In this document: positions 49,816-63,078 of the stretch, in pieces
Numbering within the stretch: the first letter of the stretch is position 1
How the letters are laid out: every line of letters begins with the position of its first letter
Assembly: GCA_902573325.1 (NCBI GenBank)
Contig: CACGJH010000007.1
Span: forward strand, 1-64,000
DNA from: an uncultured Alphaproteobacteria bacterium
GTDB taxonomy: Bacteria; Pseudomonadota; Alphaproteobacteria; HIMB59; GCA-002718135
Reading direction: 5' to 3'
DNA length: 64,000 bases
The notes under the pieces: model-generated
Seen by the model: only the letters and a program-made list of their open reading frames with translations
Databases searched by the model: none
What the model was told of the DNA's origin: nothing
Position numbers and translations under genes: made by a program

Positions 49816-51429
49816 CTAGGAAGATCTTTTATTCAGAAGATTGGTTAGCCAATCAGGATCCATTTCTGGTACTGATGACAATAAAAGCTCTGTATAATCA
49901 GGATATGGTGGATTTAAAATTTTACTTTTCAAACCCTGTTCCACTACCTCACCTTGATACATAACAACTATTTCATCTGAGATTGCTTTAACTGTTGCTA
50001 TATCATGGGTTATAAAAATATAAGTTACACCAAGATCTTTTTGTAATTTTTGGAGTAACTTTAATATTCCTTCTTGAACAATTTGATCTAGCGCTGATGT
50101 CACTTCATCACAAATAATTAAATCTGGGTTAGCCGCTAAAGCTCTTGCAATGCATATTCTCTGTTTTTGACCTCCAGATAATTCGGATGGTAATCTATCT
50201 AAAAAAGTTTCATCTAGTTCAATCATTTTTAATAATTCAATTACTTTTGCTTCTCTTTCTTTCCCTTTTATACCTTGATAAAATTCTATTGGCCTTCCTA
50301 TTATTTCATCGACAGTTTGACGGGGGTTCATTGCAGTATCAGGCATTTGAAAAATTATTTGAATTCTTCTTAATTCTTCTTTTGACCTTTGCTCAAGTTT
50401 TGGAGACAATTTTTTTCCATCAAAAATTATTTCTCCTTTTAATTGAGGAAGTAAGCCTGTAATTACTCTTGCTGTTGTTGATTTTCCTGATCCACTTTCG
50501 CCAACTATAGCTACTGTTTTACCTTTAGGAATATCTATAGAAACATTGTGTAAGACCTTCGATGAGCCATATGCTGCATCAATATTTTTAATGGACAACA
50601 TATAATCTTCATTTGTTTCTTCAGGCTTGATCAGTGATCTTACTGACCATAGAGATTTAGTGTATTCTTCTTTTGGGTTTGATAGCATATCTCTTGTTTC
50701 AGCTTCTTCAACTTCTTCACCGTATCGCAAAACTTTAATTCTATCAGCCATTTGAGCAACTACGGCTAAATCATGAGTAATATAAATTGCTGCTGTATTA
50801 AATTTGTCTACTATAGATCTCATAGCAGATAATACTTCTACTTGTGTAGTTACATCTAAGGCAGTAGTAGGTTCATCAAATATTATTAACTCTGGTCTTG
50901 GTGACATAGCCATAGCAGTCATTATTCTTTGAAGTTGGCCTCCTGATACTTGGTGCGGGTATCTATCTCCTATATTTTCCGCATCTGGAAGCTGTAGTGA
51001 TTCATAAAGTTGCACAGCATCTTTTTTTAATACATCCGTGGTATTTATCTTTAATCTATTAGCGGCACTTATTGTTTGATCCATTAATCTATGAGCAGGA
51101 TTAAAAGATGCAGCTGCTGATTGAGCAACATAAGATATTTTAGTTCCCCAAATTTTTCTCTTTTCAAATTCAGTTAGTTTAGCAAGGTCTATGCCATTAA
51201 AATTAATTTCTCCCTTTATAATCTTACAACCTGGTTGGGTATAGCCCATTGCAGCTTTACCCATAGTAGATTTTCCGGCACCACTCTCTCCTATTAATCC
51301 TAGTATTTCTCCTCTGTGTAAAGTCAAATCTACACCTTTTAAAATTTTATGCCATCTCTCATCTGAAAATCCATCAATATGGATATTTTTCATTTCAAGC
51401 AGGAGTTCTTTTGATTTATTTGACGTCAT
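49816..51429 (-). CDS. Dipeptide-type ABC transporter ATP-binding protein (fused DppD-DppF-like double ATPase)
   Basis: Two Walker A motifs (GESGAGKSTMGKA, GESGSGKSTTARV) and two signatures (VSGGQLQR, LSGGQKQR). Confidence 0.95.
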   Translation of the reverse strand: MTSNKSKELLLEMKNIHIDGFSDERWHKILKGVDLTLHRGEILGLIGESGAGKSTMGKAAMGYTQPGCKIIKGEINFNGIDLAKLTEFEKRKIWGTKISYVAQSAAASFNPAHRLMDQTISAANRLKINTTDVLKKDAVQLYESLQLPDAENIGDRYPHQVSGGQLQRIMTAMAMSPRPELIIFDEPTTALDVTTQVEVLSAMRSIVDKFNTAAIYITHDLAVVAQMADRIKVLRYGEEVEEAETRDMLSNPKEEYTKSLWSVRSLIKPEETNEDYMLSIKNIDAAYGSSKVLHNVSIDIPKGKTVAIVGESGSGKSTTARVITGLLPQLKGEIIFDGKKLSPKLEQRSKEELRRIQIIFQMPDTAMNPRQTVDEIIGRPIEFYQGIKGKEREAKVIELLKMIELDETFLDRLPSELSGGQKQRICIARALAANPDLIICDEVTSALDQIVQEGILKLLQKLQKDLGVTYIFITHDIATVKAISDEIVVMYQGEVVEQGLKSKILNPPYPDYTELLLSSVPEMDPDWLTNLLNKRSS

Positions 51430-52336
51430 CTTTTAATCCGCTAGTAATGTAAAGATACCAATCAACAACAAAATTAATTGATACACAAAGCAAAGCAATT
51501 GCAGCAGCTGGAATTAATGGTGTTAAACCTGCTGTTATATCATATTGCGCATATTGAATAAGTATTGCATTTTCCCTCACCATTGATGCCCAATCTGCTG
51601 AAGGGGGTTGAATGCCAATTCCTAAAAAGCTTAGACTAGATATTGTAAAAATTATAAATATGAACCTTAAACCAAACTCAATAATCAAAGGTGAAGCTAT
51701 ATTAGGAAGTATTTCTCTGAAAATAATATACGATAAATTTTCACCTCTTAGCCTCGCGACCTCTACATATTCTAGAACAACTTGACCAACAGCAACTGAT
51801 CTTGATATTCTAAAAAATCTAGTTGATTCCAAAATTCCTAAAATGACAATTAAATTAAAATTAGTAGGTCCAAAAACTGATAAAAGTATAAAAGTAAAAA
51901 TCATTACAGGTATAGCCATAAGCGTGTCTACTATTCTACTTAATAGTTGATCTAAATACCTTCTATCCAAAGCGGCTATAATTCCAAATACTGTTCCAAT
52001 TCCTAAAGCAATAAAAGTAGCCAATAAACAAATACCAATTGTATTTCTTGCAGCATAGATAATGCGAGAAAAAATATCTCTTCCAATTTGATCAGTACCA
52101 AATATATGGCCATCACCCCAAGGAGCATAAGCTACTGGGAATATTTCTGCTTCTCCATGTGGAGCAATTAAGGGAGCAAATATTGCAGCAAAAAAATATA
52201 TGAATAGTACGATCATACCAAACCAAGCTGAGATTGGAGCTTTTGATAAGGCAATTTTTAATCTTTCTAATCTAGTTCTTCTTTTAATTAAATTTGCAAC
52301 TTCACTTTTTGCAGAATAAGATAAATTTTCGCTCAT
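51416..52336 (-). CDS. Dipeptide-type ABC transporter permease (DppC-like)
   Basis: FGTDQIGRDIFSRIIYAARNTIGI; YVEVARLRGENLSYIIFREILPNIASPLI. Confidence 0.94.
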   Translation of the reverse strand: MSENLSYSAKSEVANLIKRRTRLERLKIALSKAPISAWFGMIVLFIYFFAAIFAPLIAPHGEAEIFPVAYAPWGDGHIFGTDQIGRDIFSRIIYAARNTIGICLLATFIALGIGTVFGIIAALDRRYLDQLLSRIVDTLMAIPVMIFTFILLSVFGPTNFNLIVILGILESTRFFRISRSVAVGQVVLEYVEVARLRGENLSYIIFREILPNIASPLIIEFGLRFIFIIFTISSLSFLGIGIQPPSADWASMVRENAILIQYAQYDITAGLTPLIPAAAIALLCVSINFVVDWYLYITSGLKDDVK

Positions 52337-53298
52337 TTTGGATATAGTAACCTTGGGTTAGAAATAATACCGATCAAGTCAGCAATTAAATTTAATATTA
52401 CATATGTTGATGCAAAAATTAATGCACAAGCTTGAACAACAGGTAAATCTCGATTATAGACTGATCCGACCATCAACCTACCAATACCTTGATAGTTAAA
52501 AACATATTCAACAACAACTGAGCCAATCAACATATAAGCTAAGTTTATTGCAATTACTTGAGAAATAGGTGCCCAAGCATTTGGAAGTGCATGTTTAACA
52601 ATTACCTCGTATCTAGAAGCTCCCGATAATTTTGCCATTTCAATATATTCACTTGATAAGATATTTATTATCGCTGACCTTGTCATTCTCATCATGTGAC
52701 CCATAGTAATTAATGTCAAAGTAAAAACTGGAAGAGCAGTCCTATAAAATCTTTCAGCCAAAGTTGAAGCCTCATCCACATTAGAAATAGTTGGAAAAAC
52801 TGGAAACAGTGTCGCTAGTAAAAGAATAAAAATATAGGCTGTAAAAAATTCTGGTGAAGATACGGTTACTAAGCTAACTCCAGTTGCTGACCTATCATAA
52901 TAAGAGTTTCTGTATAATGCTGCTGAAATACCTAAGATTAAAGATAGAGGAATAGCCAACATGGCGGCAACCCCTGTTAAAAATAATGTATTCTTTAATC
53001 TTGGGACAATTAAACCAACAACCTCTCTAGACCTATCTCCTTGGTCCCCTTGAACTTTAGATCTTCCAGAGAAAGAACTACCAAAATCTCCTTGAAAAAC
53101 ATTTCCTAACCAATCAAAATACCTTGTTACTGGAGGTTTATCTAAACCCAATTCTGCTCTTAGAGCTTTTACTGCAGATTTTGTTGCACTTTGACCTAAT
53201 ATTTCCGTAGCAAAGTCTCCTGGTAAAAAAGAGAATGTACTAAATATTATTACCGAAAATGCAAAAACTGTAACGAGACCAAGACTAAGCCTTAACAA
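52333..53298 (-). CDS. Dipeptide-type ABC transporter permease (DppB-like)
   Basis: FSFLPGDFATEILGQSATKSAVKALRAELGLDKPPVTRYFDWLGNVFQGDFGSSF; YIEMAKLSGASRYEVIVKHALPNA. Confidence 0.94.
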   Translation of the reverse strand: MLRLSLGLVTVFAFSVIIFSTFSFLPGDFATEILGQSATKSAVKALRAELGLDKPPVTRYFDWLGNVFQGDFGSSFSGRSKVQGDQGDRSREVVGLIVPRLKNTLFLTGVAAMLAIPLSLILGISAALYRNSYYDRSATGVSLVTVSSPEFFTAYIFILLLATLFPVFPTISNVDEASTLAERFYRTALPVFTLTLITMGHMMRMTRSAIINILSSEYIEMAKLSGASRYEVIVKHALPNAWAPISQVIAINLAYMLIGSVVVEYVFNYQGIGRLMVGSVYNRDLPVVQACALIFASTYVILNLIADLIGIISNPRLLYPK

Positions 53299-53488
53299 AA
53301 TTGTTCTAAATATTGGATGAATTCTACTAATATTACCCTCCTTAAAGATACAATCTTAATTCTTAAAGTTTTGTCTAAATTAGGTCAACATGTAAGCTAA
53401 AATTAATAATTTATACGTTGAATTAAAACGTTATATATGTTTTTATATATTAACTTAAGTTTGTTTTTTGTTAAATTTCTAGAAATTA

Positions 53489-53515
53489 TGAACAAAAATC
53501 ATAGGTTTTTGTTCA
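53489..53515. promoter_or_regulatory. Inverted repeat in the leader of the SBP gene (operator or 5' UTR hairpin)
   Basis: TGAACAAAAA-tcatagg-TTTTTGTTCA, 10-bp perfect arms. Confidence 0.5.
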
Positions 53516-53532
53516 ATTATAAGGGAGGACAA

Positions 53533-55161
53533 ATGAAAAATAAGAAAATAGACAAATACATTGAAGAACAGTCTTCAAAGCTAACAAAAGGGCTTATTGA
53601 TAGAAGACAGTTTATGATGTCTGTCCTTGCTACTGGGGTCACGCTTCCAATTGCATTATCATTAGCAGATAAAGCAGTTGCAGCTACACCTAAAAAAGGT
53701 GGACATTTAAGATGGGGTAATAGTGCAGCAGATGCAACTGATACTCTTGATCCAGCAACTTATCAGAGCTCATTTATGCAAGCTACTGCTTGGTCATATC
53801 AGAACTGTCTAACTGTTGTTGATTCAGATCACACAATTGTTGGAGAGCTTGCTGAGTCAATTGAATCAGATGATGCTCAAACTTGGGTATATAATCTTCG
53901 CAAAGGTGTTGAATTCCATAATGGTAAATCAATGACAGCAGAAGATGTTGTGCTCAACTACCAGTATCATATGAATCCAGATACTGCTTCGGCAGCAGGT
54001 GGACTGTTATCTCAAATTGAAACAGTTTCTGCTGATGGAAATGACAGAGTTATTTTTAAGCTAAAAGGTGCAAATGCTGATTGGCCTGCAATAACTACTG
54101 ACTATCATATTATGATTAAACCAACAAAAGATGGAGTTGTTGATGCTCAATCAACGATTGGAACTGGTCCATATATTATGGATGAATTCAATCCTGGTGT
54201 TGGTGCAAAATTTGGAAAAAGAAATCCAAATTATTTCAAAGGTGATAGTGTTGCACACTTTGATTCAGTTGAAGTAATTGGTATTAATGATCCTGCTACT
54301 AGACAAGCAGCATTATTAAACGGTGAAATTGACTGGATGAATGGTGTTGATCTTAGAACTGCTAATCTATTGACTAGAAATCCTAGTGTAGAAATTACAG
54401 CAGCTTCTGGTTACGCTCACTATACAGCTCCAATGAGATTGAACGTTCCACCGTTTGATAACTTTGATGTGCGTATGGCAATGAAGTTTGCAATTAAAAG
54501 ACAGGAAATTGTTGATAAGATTATGCTTGGATATGGTACTGTTGGTAATGATCATCCGATCTCTACTGCTCACCCATATCACAATAGCGCTTTAGAGCAG
54601 AGAGAATTTGATGCTGATAAAGCTGCATATCACTGGAAAAAATCTGGTGTAAGTGGACCAATTGAAATTAGTACTTCAGAGGTTCCTTATGCAGGATGTA
54701 CAGATGCAACAAACTTGATTGCAGCATCTGCCCAAGAATGTGGTATCGATCTTCGAGTTAAAAAAGAGCCTGAAGATGGTTACTGGAGTAACGTGTGGAA
54801 CACAAAAGGTTTCAGTATGAGTTCTTGGGGTGGAAGACCTACAGAAGATATGATGTGGTCTGCTGCATTCACAGATGACACTGAGTGGAACGAAGCTGCA
54901 TGGGGCAATCTAGTTCAAACTGATTCAACTGTTCGTTTCAATGAACTTGTTAGATCTGCTAGATCAGAACTTGATGCAGAAAAAAGAAAATCAATGTACT
55001 GGGAAGCACAAGCACTATGTAACTACGATGGTGGTGCAATTGTTTATGCATTTAACCAATATGTTGGTGCTGGTTCTAAAAAACTTGCTCACGGTGAAGA
55101 TGTTGCTGGTAACTGGGAAAGTGACGGTAACAAACTTTCTGAACGTTGGTGGTTTGCATAA
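53533..55161 (+). CDS. ABC transporter substrate-binding protein, family 5 (peptide/opine/nickel-type), Tat signal
   Basis: SD gggagg upstream of ATG 53533; IDRRQFMMSVLATGVTLPIALSLADKAVAA twin-Arg signal; LDPATYQSSFMQATAWSYQNCLTVVDSDHTIVGELAESIE. Confidence 0.93.
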   Translation: MKNKKIDKYIEEQSSKLTKGLIDRRQFMMSVLATGVTLPIALSLADKAVAATPKKGGHLRWGNSAADATDTLDPATYQSSFMQATAWSYQNCLTVVDSDHTIVGELAESIESDDAQTWVYNLRKGVEFHNGKSMTAEDVVLNYQYHMNPDTASAAGGLLSQIETVSADGNDRVIFKLKGANADWPAITTDYHIMIKPTKDGVVDAQSTIGTGPYIMDEFNPGVGAKFGKRNPNYFKGDSVAHFDSVEVIGINDPATRQAALLNGEIDWMNGVDLRTANLLTRNPSVEITAASGYAHYTAPMRLNVPPFDNFDVRMAMKFAIKRQEIVDKIMLGYGTVGNDHPISTAHPYHNSALEQREFDADKAAYHWKKSGVSGPIEISTSEVPYAGCTDATNLIAASAQECGIDLRVKKEPEDGYWSNVWNTKGFSMSSWGGRPTEDMMWSAAFTDDTEWNEAAWGNLVQTDSTVRFNELVRSARSELDAEKRKSMYWEAQALCNYDGGAIVYAFNQYVGAGSKKLAHGEDVAGNWESDGNKLSERWWFA

Positions 55162-55225: not shown

Positions 55226-56149
55226 ATGTTTTTAAAAAAAAAGAAATATCTCTTTGATGGAGGTTCTGGTCAAACTTTAATGGAAATGGGTTTAGAAACA
55301 ACCGGCGATCTTTGGTCTGCACAAGCTTTATTAAATGAAAATAATCACTCAATGGTCGTAGATATGCATAAAAATTTTATAAATGCAGGCTCACAATTAA
55401 TAGTTACCTCAAATTTTAGTGTTAGAAGGAGATTATTAAAAAAATACAATTTACTTGATAAATTTGAATTTGGAATAAGATCTGCTGGAACACTTGCTTT
55501 AAAAGCAAAAAATGAAAGTGATAAAAAAGTTATTCTTGCAGGCTCATTGCCAAATCAAGGTAATACATATTCTCCAGTACATTTTGAAACAGACGAAACA
55601 ATGTTTAATTATTTTCATGAAATTGCAAAAATATTAAAAGATTACGTTGACATATTTTACCTAGATGTTTTGTGTTCAATCAAAGAAATAAAAATTGCTT
55701 TAGAAGCTTCAAAAGAATTCAATAAACAAGTTCTTGTAGGTGTGCACTTACGTTATGATGGAAAATTACCATCTGGAGAAAATCTAGATGAACTTTTTGA
55801 AACTATACAAGAATTTAATTGTTGCGGCATAGTATCAGCCTGCGTATCGCCTGAAATTGTTAATTTGAGTATTCCTATGTTCAATAAACAAAAACTTCCT
55901 TTTGGTTATAAAATGAATTTATTTAAACAACTGCCAACTAGTAATAAAGAAAAATTTAATTCAGAGGGCTTTGAAGGACATTATGATTATATTGATCCCG
56001 TTGAGTTACTTGGCACTAGGAAAGAAGAATTTGGGGAGGATAAATATAAAAAGTTTGTTTTAAAATCTTTAAATGAAGGTGTTACTCTAGTTGGTGGATG
56101 CTGTGAAGTAAAGCCACGACATATTGAAGCTATTAAGAATTTATTTTAA
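55226..56149 (+). CDS. Homocysteine S-methyltransferase family protein (BHMT/MmuM-like)
   Basis: FDGGSGQTLMEMGL; CGIVSACVSPE; C-terminal VGGCCEVKPRHIEAI Zn-binding Cys pair. Confidence 0.9.
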   Translation: MFLKKKKYLFDGGSGQTLMEMGLETTGDLWSAQALLNENNHSMVVDMHKNFINAGSQLIVTSNFSVRRRLLKKYNLLDKFEFGIRSAGTLALKAKNESDKKVILAGSLPNQGNTYSPVHFETDETMFNYFHEIAKILKDYVDIFYLDVLCSIKEIKIALEASKEFNKQVLVGVHLRYDGKLPSGENLDELFETIQEFNCCGIVSACVSPEIVNLSIPMFNKQKLPFGYKMNLFKQLPTSNKEKFNSEGFEGHYDYIDPVELLGTRKEEFGEDKYKKFVLKSLNEGVTLVGGCCEVKPRHIEAIKNLF

Positions 56150-56190: not shown

Positions 56191-57420
56191 ATGGGAGATT
56201 TAGTTAGTAATTACAGATTTGTTGTAAAGCCAGTTATTAAAGAAACTGGCAGATCTCTTGATTTGGCTAGACCCATGAAAATACATCCTCTTACTTATCA
56301 GGAATTACCACTCAACCCAGAATATACTAACTACGCTGATGGAAGATTTACACTTGAAAAATTATCTCATGCTACAGCAGATGAAATGTATTGGAAAGCT
56401 AGACAAGAAATAATCTTACGTCATACGGGTGAACATCCATACGAAATCTCTGGTCCAGATGCTGAAAATTTACTTCAACAAATATTTCCTAGAGATATTT
56501 CAAAAGTAAAAATTGGAAGATGCTCCTATCAATTTGCATGCTACCATGATGGAGGAGTGATTTCAGATGGATTGTTATTAAGATTAGAAAAAAATAAATT
56601 TTGGTTTGCTCAAGGTGATGGACATTTATATAGTTGGTACAAAGCTCATTCTAAAAATTTAGATGTTGAAATTAATGATCCAAACGTATGGGTCAGCCAA
56701 ATACAAGGCCCTAAATCTCTAAAACTTTTAGAAAAACTAGTTGATCAACCATTAAAAAATAATTTTAATTATTTTGATTGGATTGAAACTTCAATTGCTT
56801 CAGAAAAAGTGATTATAAGTAGAACAGGGTTTACGAATGAACTAGGTTGGGAAATTTATTTAAGACCACAAAATGATTCAAAAAAAATCGGAGACTTAAT
56901 ATTAAGTAATGGTGAAGAAATGGGAATGATCTTAACAGCCTCACCAGGATTTAGATGTAGAAGAATTGAGGCAGGTCTCTTATCTGCAGGGAGAGATTTT
57001 ACAAGAGATAGATCTCCATTTGCTGTTGGATTAGGAAAATTTATAGATTTTAATAAAGGAGATTTCATTGGAAGAGATTATTTGCTAAATGCAAGCAAAG
57101 ATTGTTTAACATGGGGTATGAGAGTAGAAAATAGTTTTGCTGTAGTTGACTCTGAAATTTCTATTAATAATAAAAAAGTAGGCATTGTAACTTCAAGTAC
57201 ATGGTCGCCATTTCAAGTTTGTGGTGTTGCTATAGTTCATATGAACCATGTAGAATTTGGACCAGGCACAATAGTAGATGTCAGTTGTGATGATGGTAGT
57301 TTGCAAAAAGGTGAAATCTGCACTTTACCAATGTATGATGAGAAAGGTGAAATACAAAGAGGTTTAAAAGAAGATATTCCATCCAATCCAATACCTTGGA
57401 AGGGTATTTCAAAAAACTAA
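56191..57420 (+). CDS. GcvT/aminomethyltransferase family protein (folate-dependent demethylase-like)
   Basis: YWKARQEIILRHTGEHPYEISGPDAENLLQQIFPRDISKVKIGRCSYQF; SRTGFTNELGWEIYLRP; CRRIEAGLLSAGRDF. Confidence 0.9.
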   Translation: MGDLVSNYRFVVKPVIKETGRSLDLARPMKIHPLTYQELPLNPEYTNYADGRFTLEKLSHATADEMYWKARQEIILRHTGEHPYEISGPDAENLLQQIFPRDISKVKIGRCSYQFACYHDGGVISDGLLLRLEKNKFWFAQGDGHLYSWYKAHSKNLDVEINDPNVWVSQIQGPKSLKLLEKLVDQPLKNNFNYFDWIETSIASEKVIISRTGFTNELGWEIYLRPQNDSKKIGDLILSNGEEMGMILTASPGFRCRRIEAGLLSAGRDFTRDRSPFAVGLGKFIDFNKGDFIGRDYLLNASKDCLTWGMRVENSFAVVDSEISINNKKVGIVTSSTWSPFQVCGVAIVHMNHVEFGPGTIVDVSCDDGSLQKGEICTLPMYDEKGEIQRGLKEDIPSNPIPWKGISKN

Positions 57421-57468: not shown

Positions 57469-58632
57469 ATGAATGATCTCATTAAACCTAGCACAAAAAT
57501 TCACACAATTGATGATGCAATAAGATTATCTAAAAAAAGATTACCAAAATTAGTCTTTGATTTTATTGATGGAGCATCAGGAGATGATAAACTTGCTGAA
57601 ATTAATAGTACTGCGTTAGATCAAATTAGACTTGAACCTAAGGTTTTTAGAAATGTTGAGAATAGAAATTTAAGAAAAAAAATATTTGATTTTCATTTTG
57701 ATTATCCATTTGGATTTGCACCAATGGGAATGACAAATCTTTCATGGCCTGAAGCAGATAAAATGATAGCAAAAGAAAGTGCGTATAATAATATTCCAAC
57801 ATGTGTTTCAATGGCTTCTAGTACTACGCTAGAAGATATGTTTACTTTTTCAGAAGGTCATTCATGGATGCAAATATATATTTTTCAAAGTGAAGAATTT
57901 ATTATGGAATTATTAAAAAGAGCAGAAAATATTGGATACAAAGTTTTGATCCTCACTGTTGATGTTCCAATTCTTTCAAGAAGAGCTAGAGATGATAGAA
58001 ATGGCTTTGGTTATCCATTTAAAATTGGCCCAAAACAATTTTTAGATTTTGCTCTACATCCTCAATGGAGCTTAACAACTTTATTTAAAGGCGCTCCACA
58101 ACCAATGAATTATGTTACCTCTAAAAGTGGTGATCAAATTTTTAGACGAAAAGAAAGTAGAGGAGCAACTGATTGGAATACTCTAAAAAGGGTTCGAGAC
58201 GCTTGGAAAGGAAAATTAATAATCAAAGGAGTAATGAATTCTGAAGATGCTTTGAAAATTAAAGAGGCTGGTGCTGATGCAATTCAAGTATCAAATCATG
58301 GTGGAAGGCAATTAGATAGTGCTACTGCTTCTATTAATGCTTTGCCATTAGTACGAAAAGCTTTGGGAGAGGATTTTCCAATACTTTTTGATAGTGGCAT
58401 TAGAAGTGGTAGTGATATTTTACGAGCATTAGCTCTGGGAGCTAACTTTGTTATGTTTGGTAGACCTTTAATGTACGCCATTGGCGCAGATGGTGCAAAA
58501 GGTCTTCGAAGAATCATTAACTTAATTAAAGAAGAGTTAAGTACAAATCTTGGATTAGTGGGATTAACCGATATCAATGAAGTTGATAAAAAAATTATAG
58601 CAGAGAAATTTTTTAAGGATATAAAGTATTAA
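57469..58632 (+). CDS. FMN-dependent alpha-hydroxy-acid oxidase/dehydrogenase (LldD/MdlB/glycolate oxidase family)
   Basis: KRLPKLVFDFIDGASGDDKLAEIN; GADAIQVSNHGGRQLDSATASINALP; FDSGIRSGSDILRALALGANFVMFGRPLMYA. Confidence 0.95.
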   Translation: MNDLIKPSTKIHTIDDAIRLSKKRLPKLVFDFIDGASGDDKLAEINSTALDQIRLEPKVFRNVENRNLRKKIFDFHFDYPFGFAPMGMTNLSWPEADKMIAKESAYNNIPTCVSMASSTTLEDMFTFSEGHSWMQIYIFQSEEFIMELLKRAENIGYKVLILTVDVPILSRRARDDRNGFGYPFKIGPKQFLDFALHPQWSLTTLFKGAPQPMNYVTSKSGDQIFRRKESRGATDWNTLKRVRDAWKGKLIIKGVMNSEDALKIKEAGADAIQVSNHGGRQLDSATASINALPLVRKALGEDFPILFDSGIRSGSDILRALALGANFVMFGRPLMYAIGADGAKGLRRIINLIKEELSTNLGLVGLTDINEVDKKIIAEKFFKDIKY

Positions 58633-60379: not shown

Positions 60380-60715
60380 ATGGCAATTTTTTCTACACAT
60401 TTACTAAACTCAATAGATGGTACGCATGCAAGTGATGTAGAAATTGTTATTTATAAAGTAAATAATAATAACAAAGTTGTATTTTTAGAAGATAAAACAG
60501 ATAGCGCTGGAAGAATGCTTAAAGAATTTGAATTAACGAAAGAAGATTGTGAAAGTGATTATGAAATGATAATTAATTCTGGTAAATATTTTAGAAATAC
60601 TAGTGAAATAATTAATTCAATCAGTGTTAAATTTAAAATGAAAGATCCTCTTAAAAAATATCACATACCTTTAATTGTTTCTCCAAATGGATACTCAATA
60701 TGGTGGTCTAAATAA
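60380..60715 (+). CDS. Transthyretin-like/hydroxyisourate hydrolase family protein with non-canonical C-terminus
   Basis: MAIFSTHLLNSIDGTHASDVEIVIYK; DSAGRMLKEF; KYHIPLIVSPNGYSIWWSK* in place of ...YRGS. Confidence 0.85.
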   Translation: MAIFSTHLLNSIDGTHASDVEIVIYKVNNNNKVVFLEDKTDSAGRMLKEFELTKEDCESDYEMIINSGKYFRNTSEIINSISVKFKMKDPLKKYHIPLIVSPNGYSIWWSK

Positions 60716-60716
60716 A

Positions 60717-61838
60717 ATGAGTAATTCAGGATTAAACATGTCTAGACGCATTAGGAGGACTCCTTATACCGAGAAAGTAATTGAGGCTGGTGTAAGTGGT
60801 TTTACTGTAGTTAATCATATGCTTCTTCCAAAATCATATAAAGCAACAGTAGAAGAAGATTATTGGCACTTATCTAAAAATACTCAAATTTGGGATGTCT
60901 CATGTCAACGACAGGTTCAAATAATAGGAGAAGATGCTCCAAAATTAATACAACTCATGTCTCCAAGATCAATAAAAGATATGCCTATTGGTAAATGTTA
61001 CTATTATCCAATGATAGATGAAAATGCAGGGATGATAAATGATCCTGTACTTTTAAAATTAAGTGAAAATAAATATTGGCTATCAGTTGCAGATTCAGAT
61101 GTCCTTCTTTGGGCAAAAGGATTGGCTGTAGGAAGAAATTTTAAAGTTGATATTATAGAGCCAGATATTTATCCCTTAGCAATTCAAGGTCCAAAATCTG
61201 AAAAATTAATGTCATCAATATTTGGAGAAAAAATTAAAAAATTAAAATTCTTTCATTTTTCATTTTTTGAATTTGAAGGAACAAAGCAGATTATTGCAAG
61301 ATCAGGATATAGCAAACAAGATGGTTTTGAGATTTATCTTAAAGGTTTTAGTTTAGGAAAAAAACTTTGGGAAACTATTTGGGAAGCAGGAAAAGATTTT
61401 AATATTTCACCTGGATGTCCAAATTTAATTGATAGAATAGAAGGTGGTTTATTATCCTATGGTAATGAATTTACTTTAGAAAATAATCCAATTGAATGTG
61501 GATTTGATAATTATTGTAAAAATTTATCTCATGATTTCATTGGAAAAAATGCACTAAAAAAAATATTAAAAAATGGAATAGAAAAAAAAATAAAAGGAAT
61601 TACTTTTGACGGGTCCCCGACTCCTCCATGCTCAATACCTTTTCCTGTATATTCAAAAAATAGATTTCAAATTGGTAATATCACCTCTGGTATTTATTCA
61701 CCGTTTTTAAAAACCAATATTGGCCTATCAATGGTTGATAGAGATTATTGGAATGATGGACAGGATGTTATCGTATTAACACCAGACAATATTGAGAGAA
61801 AAGGTAAAGTGTGCTCACTACCTTTTAATTATTCCTAA
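60717..61838 (+). CDS. DmdA-like dimethylsulfoniopropionate demethylase / GcvT family
   Basis: RRIRRTPYTEKVIEAGVSGFTVVNHMLLPKSY; EDYWHLSKNTQIWDVSCQRQVQI; GKCYYYPMIDENAGMINDPVLLKL; IIARSGYSKQDGFEIYLKGF; 373 aa, close to known DmdA length; ORF track start (60675) is too far upstream. Confidence 0.8.
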   Translation: MSNSGLNMSRRIRRTPYTEKVIEAGVSGFTVVNHMLLPKSYKATVEEDYWHLSKNTQIWDVSCQRQVQIIGEDAPKLIQLMSPRSIKDMPIGKCYYYPMIDENAGMINDPVLLKLSENKYWLSVADSDVLLWAKGLAVGRNFKVDIIEPDIYPLAIQGPKSEKLMSSIFGEKIKKLKFFHFSFFEFEGTKQIIARSGYSKQDGFEIYLKGFSLGKKLWETIWEAGKDFNISPGCPNLIDRIEGGLLSYGNEFTLENNPIECGFDNYCKNLSHDFIGKNALKKILKNGIEKKIKGITFDGSPTPPCSIPFPVYSKNRFQIGNITSGIYSPFLKTNIGLSMVDRDYWNDGQDVIVLTPDNIERKGKVCSLPFNYS

Positions 61839-61839
61839 A

Positions 61840-62286
61840 ATGAGTCATTCAATCGAATTAAAGTGGGAGTTAGGAGATCAAAAACTCGAATTTGGAAAAT
61901 ACTTAACTGATCACAAAGTAATACTTAACGAAAATGTATCTATTGATGCGGGATCATCTCCAGATTATGGAGGGAGTGAAACTAATATTAATCCAGAACA
62001 AAAACTTGCTGCAGCTGTAAGTAGTTGTTTTATGATGACGTTTTTAGCTTTAGCTGCAAAAATGAAATGGCCAGTCATTAATTATAAAGATAAAGCAATT
62101 TCGTATTTAGGAAAAAATGCAGAAGGAAGAATGTACGTCAACAAAATAGAGCTAAATCCAGCTATAGCATTTGAAGATAATTTTAATATTTCTGATGAAG
62201 AAATGAAAAAGATGAAAGAGAGATCACATAAGTATTGTTTTATCGCTAATTCATTATCTAAAGATGTTGAAATTCAAATCAATTAA
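61840..62286 (+). CDS. OsmC family protein
   Basis: INPEQKLAAAVSSCFMMTFLALAAKMKWPV; EEMKKMKERSHKYCFIANSL (two conserved Cys); true ATG 61840. Confidence 0.92.
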   Translation: MSHSIELKWELGDQKLEFGKYLTDHKVILNENVSIDAGSSPDYGGSETNINPEQKLAAAVSSCFMMTFLALAAKMKWPVINYKDKAISYLGKNAEGRMYVNKIELNPAIAFEDNFNISDEEMKKMKERSHKYCFIANSLSKDVEIQIN

Positions 62287-63078
62287 ATGAATTTTAATCA
62301 AATATTAACTGAAAAAAATAATAATATTTTTAATATTATTCTTAATGACCAGAAAAACCAAAATACTTTAAGTGAAAACATGATCAATGAATTAACATCA
62401 GCGCTAGATATTGCTGATAAAGATAATGAAGTAAAAGTAATTATTTTATCATCAAAAGGTAATATTTTTTGTGCAGGACATAATTTAAAAGATTTAAATT
62501 CACAAAGATTGCAAAATGATAAAGGTGAAAGCTATTTTAAAAAAATATTTCAAATGTGCTCTCAACTTATGCTGAAAATTAATAAAAATAATAAACCAGT
62601 TATAGCTATGGTTCATGGTATTGCTACGGCAGCAGGCTGTCAGTTAATTTCTAGCTGTGATTTAGCTTACTCAAGTAGCAGAGCAAAATATGCAACCCCT
62701 GGTGTTAATATTGGATTATTTTGTTCTACACCAATGGTTCCATTATCAAGAACTGTAGGGAAAAAGCAAGCAATGGAAATGCTTCTCACTGGAGATCTTA
62801 TAGATGCAAATAAAGCATTAAGGATTGGTTTAATAAATGATGTCTTTGAAGAAGATAGTTTAAAAGAAAATGTATTTAAAATTGCTAAAAAAATATCGTC
62901 TAAATCTTCTAATACTATTAAAATTGGTAAAGAAGCTTTTTACAAACAAAAAGATATGAATTTAGAAGATGCATATACTTTTACTTCAAAGGTAATGACA
63001 GAAAATATGTTACATGATGATTCCAAAGAAGGTATTGAAGCTTTTTTAGAAAAAAGAGAACCAAACTGGAAAGAATAA
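62287..63078 (+). CDS. Enoyl-CoA hydratase/isomerase (crotonase) family protein
   Basis: NTLSENMINELTSALDIADKDNEVKVIILSSKGNIFCAGHNLKDL; GIATAAGCQLISSCDLAYSSSRAKYATPGVNIGLF. Confidence 0.92.
   Translation: MNFNQILTEKNNNIFNIILNDQKNQNTLSENMINELTSALDIADKDNEVKVIILSSKGNIFCAGHNLKDLNSQRLQNDKGESYFKKIFQMCSQLMLKINKNNKPVIAMVHGIATAAGCQLISSCDLAYSSSRAKYATPGVNIGLFCSTPMVPLSRTVGKKQAMEMLLTGDLIDANKALRIGLINDVFEEDSLKENVFKIAKKISSKSSNTIKIGKEAFYKQKDMNLEDAYTFTSKVMTENMLHDDSKEGIEAFLEKREPNWKE

Follow-up and report, generated by a model that had tools for sequence, protein, structure and literature searches.

The window (the whole stretch of 64,000 nucleotides analysed here) encodes a small protein of the transthyretin (TTR) family, belonging to a group in which W-x-S takes the place of the YRGS ending of ordinary hydroxyisourate hydrolases (HIUases; UraH). 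This W-x-S form is almost certainly a distinct, non-purine subfamily. Judged from the residues that are kept and those that are changed, its members are probably still hydrolases with a different substrate, very probably a marine compound other than that of the urate pathway. To our knowledge, few functions of the TTR fold are known beyond hydroxyisourate (HIU) hydrolysis and vertebrate hormone transport. The W-x-S form would be a third conserved TTR subfamily, and its retention even in streamlined genomes of about 1–1.5 Mb indicates that selection maintains a pathway in abundant ocean bacteria. Current annotations probably call the proteins of its gene cassette hydroxyisourate hydrolase or DMSP demethylase, which would distort surveys of purine and DMSP metabolism.

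Fold, family and residues of the window protein

The open reading frame encodes 111 amino acids and ends in GYSIWWSK; the initial annotation had read its boundaries and its altered ending correctly. The protein matches PF00576 (Transthyretin/HIUase) with 70.3 bits (cut-off 25.3), which places it in the superfamily, and scores 70 bits against the HIUase equivalog TIGR02962, below the curated cut-off of 87.45. Of the features that mark a UraH, it has the catalytic His/Arg/His and lacks both the C-terminal YRGS and, for the six uricolytic genes used as queries, a purine neighbourhood. An AlphaFold model (32 homologues as input) has a pLDDT of 95.9 and a pTM of 0.86; it is a model of the monomer, which does not show the active site of HIUases, formed at the dimer–dimer interface of the homotetramer. 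The best solved match to the model in Foldseek is E. coli YedX (transthyretin-related; TM 0.86–0.87), with other HIUases also among the top matches; model and Foldseek together give the protein the β-sandwich fold of TTR.

Table. Features of the window, with positions counted from its first nucleotide
Feature	Position	Strand	Remarks
Two oligopeptide/nickel-type ABC permeases (51416-52336, 52333-53298)	51416..53298	-	
SBP_bac_5-like oligopeptide-type ABC binding protein	53437..55161	+	start codon uncertain; homologues at 16/34 loci
Homocysteine S-methyltransferase family protein	55226..56149	+	PF02574; also in SAR11 locus L108
GcvT-family protein	56191..57420	+	PF01571; 62-64% identical in most SAR11 loci
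FMN-dependent alpha-hydroxyacid dehydrogenase	57469..58632	+	PF01070, 395 bits
ThDP-dependent enzyme, 580 aa	58634..60376	+	partner gene at every locus
W-x-S-type transthyretin/HIUase-fold protein, 111 aa	60380..60715	+	Pfam match, structure model, Foldseek
His7 codon (THLL; catalytic His in HIUase)	60398..60400	+	invariant, 41/41 W-x-S and 43/43 YRGS
His16 codon, clade-specific, in place of UraH Pro	60425..60427	+	H in 41/41 W-x-S; P in 41/43 YRGS
Arg45 codon (AGR; oxyanion/carbonyl-binding Arg in HIUase)	60512..60514	+	invariant in both groups
His95 codon (KYHIPL; catalytic His in HIUase)	60662..60664	+	invariant in both groups
C-terminal WWSK in place of YRGS; core W108-x-S110	60701..60712	+	W108 41/41, S110 40/41
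DmdA-like THF-dependent methyltransferase	60717..61838	+	NF009133, 531 bits (cut-off 410)
OsmC-like protein	61840..62286	+	PF02566; downstream, conserved within the window's genus
Enoyl-CoA hydratase-like protein	62287..63078	+	PRK08139, 370 bits (cut-off 313); downstream in the window's genus

Residues were compared across two sets: the W-x-S group, dereplicated to 41 sequences, and 43 UraHs of the ordinary YRGS type. The His of THLL, the Arg of AGR and the His of KYHIPL, which had been singled out as kept, are present as His7, Arg45 and His95. At the C-terminus, Tyr108 of the UraHs (43/43) is Trp in every W-x-S sequence, and Gly110 (43/43) is Ser in all but one of the 41; with W108 and S110 so nearly fixed against Y and G in all UraHs, this ending is more than chance. 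Asn41 is mostly Asp in the W-x-S group. Arg109 and the terminal Ser are gone with no fixed substitute, positions 109 and 111 are variable, and in several members the C-terminal tail is 1–5 residues longer. YRGS has been replaced, as had been proposed, but WWSK does not hold as the signature: going by the alignment, the conserved motif is W-x-S, since neither the second W nor the terminal K is constant. One UraH (L234; G927:C7:31429-31770) groups with the ordinary enzymes, yet ends in YLGS instead of YRGS.

The roles of these positions in HIUases come from the literature. For the Klebsiella enzyme (kpHIUH), a docking and QM study which cites kinetics describes one His7/His92 pair that holds the C5-OH and another that activates water, two Arg41 residues that bind C6=O, and Tyr105 and the terminal Ser108 that bind atoms of the purine ring; S108A is mild in effect and loss of the C-terminal tetrapeptide severe (PMC8272043). 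Changing the Tyr of YRGS to Phe abolishes rapid HIU hydrolysis, and a change of Tyr to Thr accompanies the loss of HIUase activity en route to transthyretin (PMC4324301). The kept and changed residues of the W-x-S group map onto these published roles: what recognises and attacks HO–C–C(=O)–N has been retained, and what recognises the purine has been replaced.

Purine context and distribution

The same fold and the same three catalytic residues would also be expected of a W-x-S protein that had remained an HIUase, or that hydrolysed methyl-HIU (compare the trimethyl-HIU hydrolase known from caffeine catabolism), and merely lay outside a purine cluster. In three near-complete genomes, i.e., G1107 (98%), G1099 (94%) and G1106 (91%), no TTR-family gene was found besides the W-x-S one, which also suits this explanation. 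It is nevertheless very unlikely, given that the Tyr of YRGS is always Trp, that the TIGR02962 cut-off is missed, and what is found in the host and at the other loci.

The host genome (1.46 Mb, 37 contigs) carries a further TTR gene (112 bits), located on a different contig, whose product ends in YSTYRGS. Its uricolytic locus comprises a membrane-type urate oxidase, a deaminase, XdhC-like, XdhB, XdhA, UraH, a PuuE-like deacetylase-family protein, UraD, allantoicase, ureidoglycolate lyase and an ABC transporter (XdhC and the transporter being assigned from reading the sequence). As this full locus has its own YRGS UraH, the window protein is not needed for urate breakdown. The window itself yielded none of UraD, XdhA/B, PuuE, allantoicase and AllA in tblastn searches with positive controls; the supposed absence of an OHCU decarboxylase (UraD) from the window was thus borne out, and the supposed lack of purine context holds for the window and these genes, but not for the genome as a whole. 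With the same six queries and the controls positive, UraD, XdhA, XdhB, PuuE, allantoicase and AllA were absent from all 111 W-x-S loci, i.e., no homologue was seen beside these genes of urate oxidation. A YRGS hydrolase in the host and none of these six purine genes at 111 loci argue that the window gene is a neofunctionalised paralogue rather than the HIUase of this genome.

An ordinary UraH is kept in 21 of the 24 W-x-S genomes tested, a further point against a W-x-S protein that is still an HIUase. A purine link drawn from this co-occurrence was considered and dropped, because UraH is nearly universal in those families: a TTR-family gene is present in 52/61 and 233/249 genomes of the same families, which makes the co-occurrence uninformative.

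In a tree of the W-x-S proteins and ordinary UraHs, which is built on a short alignment and has a few members on long branches, the split between the two has a support of 100/100, or 100/98 when the columns of the C-terminal tail are left out. The link that had been anticipated between such a clade and ThDP and DmdA neighbours extends across distant Alphaproteobacteria. Of the genomes of the window's genus that were searched, about two thirds have an orthologue; orthologues also occur in SAR11 single-cell genomes (54–65% identity), and more distant ones in families f110 (SAR116-like), f81 and f24 (Rhodobacteraceae-like), these family names being inferred labels; identity among W-x-S proteins falls as low as about 28%. 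Separate searches of 385 genomes of the class with a TTR profile and with the ThDP protein led to the same six genomes; other matches to the TTR profile scored below 55 bits, and those inspected were ordinary YRGS UraHs. In f24, two TTR genes are present in 12/12 genomes with a ThDP orthologue, compared with about 10 of the 237 others. A plasmid search with the TTR protein gave, among the matches listed, only ordinary UraH-like ones, and one with the ThDP enzyme gave no match.

The gene cassette and its enzymes

The TTR gene is separated by 3 nt from the end of the ThDP gene and by 1 nt from the ATG of the DmdA-like gene, in agreement with the gaps first noted. In all 34 neighbourhoods surveyed, the gene immediately before the TTR gene encodes the same orthologous ThDP enzyme; the DmdA-like gene usually follows, and the FMN gene usually lies upstream. 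No DmdA next to the TTR gene was detected at the f81 loci L151, L207 and L208 or at L205, and no FMN gene was recovered at these four or at L197, although it was recovered at most loci. Since FMN and DmdA were not found at some loci, gene content does not fix the order of the pathway. Other recurrent neighbours are peptidase S51 (18/34 loci), an MttB-family protein (8), LysR and an oligopeptide transporter, together with a thiolase in SAR11 loci.

In congeners (L037, L098-L102, L113, L153), the homocysteine S-methyltransferase gene is either about 67% or 92–96% identical to that of the window, and the flanking FMN and ThDP genes are mostly 90–98% identical: a pattern as if two alleles were exchanged. 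Certain W-x-S loci lie near other catabolic genes: urease, carnitine dehydrogenase and a BKACE-type enzyme at L197 (144-4375, 4963-7337), a dihydropyrimidinase and carbamoylase pair at L203 (91-2644), and formimidoylglutamate deiminase at L202 (4765-6126). Catabolism of arginine/guanidine compounds and hydantoins was considered and set aside, and no substrate was drawn from these neighbours, because agmatinase-like, hydantoinase, HutF, urease and carnitine genes each occur at no more than two loci, all Rhodobacteraceae-like. Literature searches found no paper describing this gene cluster.

The ThDP enzyme keeps the catalytic Glu52 and GDG...NN in 36/36 sequences. It has been suggested that the TTR-fold protein could be its accessory subunit, which would bind and stabilise or regulate the ThDP enzyme without catalysis of its own. 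The ThDP gene is indeed the immediate partner at every locus, including those without FMN or DmdA, and the ThDP enzyme is extremely conserved (208/580 columns invariant) while the TTR protein varies down to the identity given above. Such a subunit is nonetheless unlikely: a purely structural protein would not need His7, Arg45 and His95, which are invariant in 41/41, no ThDP–TTR fusion was seen, and related ThDP cassettes do without a TTR. The latter are at L276 and L278 (G1057:C97, G1090:C58), which share with the W-x-S cassette an oxidoreductase, a ThDP enzyme (36–38% identity) and a DmdA-like gene, and have a GMC oxidoreductase where the W-x-S cassette has the FMN enzyme. They also carry an ECH-like protein and LysR, and another ThDP paralogue lies beside a GMC oxidoreductase and transporter genes at L275 and L277.

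In the FMN enzyme, Asp165, Arg172, His277 and Arg280 are each kept in 30/30 sequences. At the position equivalent to Tyr24, most sequences carry Phe; the enzyme could therefore use something other than an ordinary alpha-hydroxy acid.

The DmdA-like protein exceeds the cut-off for the DMSP demethylase DmdA and is about 50% identical to the HTCC1062 DmdA (3TFH), as read from an alignment, yet forms a subgroup of its own: Val33 is found in 35/35 cassette proteins, whereas separate DmdAs have the conserved Tyr (position 32 of the DmdA group) in 8/8. An SGW/SGY difference did not separate the groups. The cassette protein usually coexists with a separate DmdA in the same genome: a further DmdA-family gene over the cut-off was found in the host and in several other genomes tested, and in G312, G478 and G1000 the cassette copy is the only one to exceed it. 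The second gene of the host (L264; G000:C16:26-934) scores 489 bits and lies at a contig edge; the host has nine GcvT-family matches in all. On these sequence comparisons, the cassette protein may or may not act on DMSP.

Proposed pathway and comparison with known systems

As far as residues and neighbours allow, the window gene may well be a neofunctionalised HIUase paralogue that now hydrolyses an alpha-hydroxy amide other than hydroxyisourate; such an amide would probably be a lactam or a cyclic imide. As in HIUases, the two histidines would activate water and hold the alpha-hydroxyl, and Arg45 would hold the amide carbonyl; Trp108, Ser110 and His16 would form a new pocket for the remainder of the substrate. 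Hydrolysis of the amide would give an alpha-hydroxy acid, i.e., a member of the substrate class of the FMN enzyme, which would oxidise it to an alpha-keto acid. Keto acids are the substrate class of ThDP decarboxylases, and the ThDP enzyme would decarboxylate this one to an aldehyde. The DmdA-like protein would hand a methyl group on to tetrahydrofolate, and the whole would amount to the breakdown of a methylated marine compound. That the substrate of the W-x-S protein is an alpha-hydroxy amide whose product feeds the FMN enzyme in this way is put forward tentatively. With slightly less reserve, a new activity in the TTR superfamily can be envisaged: the W-x-S protein would hydrolyse an alpha-hydroxy lactam or amide as part of a catabolic pathway, so far undescribed, by which SAR11, SAR116, Rhodobacteraceae and the window's genus degrade a methylated metabolite of marine origin.

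Possibly, the TTR protein acts instead after the ThDP enzyme and hydrolyses its product, which would then be cyclic and reactive (a cyclised amino-aldehyde or acyloin, for example). The order ThDP–TTR–DmdA is the most conserved part of the cassette, and HIUase itself takes an unstable enzymatic product. Gene order indicates reaction order poorly, though, and the retained residues serve to bind an alpha-hydroxy amide (PMC8272043), a compound that would stand upstream of an alpha-hydroxyacid dehydrogenase; this placement therefore seems quite unlikely. Thus, of the two roles originally offered, a neofunctionalised hydrolase agrees with catalytic residues kept and substrate-binding residues changed, and an accessory subunit is the less likely one, its catalytic residues being invariant; the unstable ThDP product offered as substrate corresponds to one of two positions that the protein might take in the pathway, and the other, ahead of the FMN dehydrogenase, agrees better with the known chemistry of the fold.

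The cassette could also be read as converting DMSHB (4-dimethylsulfonio-2-hydroxybutyrate) via a keto acid and an aldehyde to DMSP, followed by demethylation, with the TTR protein in a minor or proofreading role. The FMN dehydrogenase, the ThDP enzyme and a DmdA-like protein over the NF009133 cut-off fit this chemistry. This route is highly improbable, as it leaves the TTR protein without a substrate, a separate DmdA is usual in these genomes, and the cassette protein differs at the strictly conserved Tyr; for DMSP itself as the cassette substrate, the separate DmdA and the lack of any role for the TTR protein were the grounds for keeping it as no more than a rival.

For the preferred scheme, i.e., an amide hydrolase ahead of the FMN enzyme, a known analogy is the mandelate-type route with its FMN (S)-mandelate dehydrogenase and ThDP benzoylformate decarboxylase. 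The proposed order of the chemistry (hydroxy acid, keto acid, aldehyde) is alike; the cassette differs in that no aromatic pathway genes were seen, and in having the TTR and methyltransferase steps in addition. With UraH/HiuH/PucM/YedX, the window protein shares the fold, the length and the catalytic His7/Arg45/His95; it differs in having W-x-S-x for YRGS and His16 for Pro16, in lacking the terminal Ser and purine neighbours, and in falling under the equivalog cut-off and into its own clade. Vertebrate transthyretin has the same fold and has likewise lost the Tyr of YRGS; however, there the Tyr became Thr and the enzyme function was lost (PMC4324301), whereas in the W-x-S form the Tyr became Trp and His/Arg/His stayed invariant.
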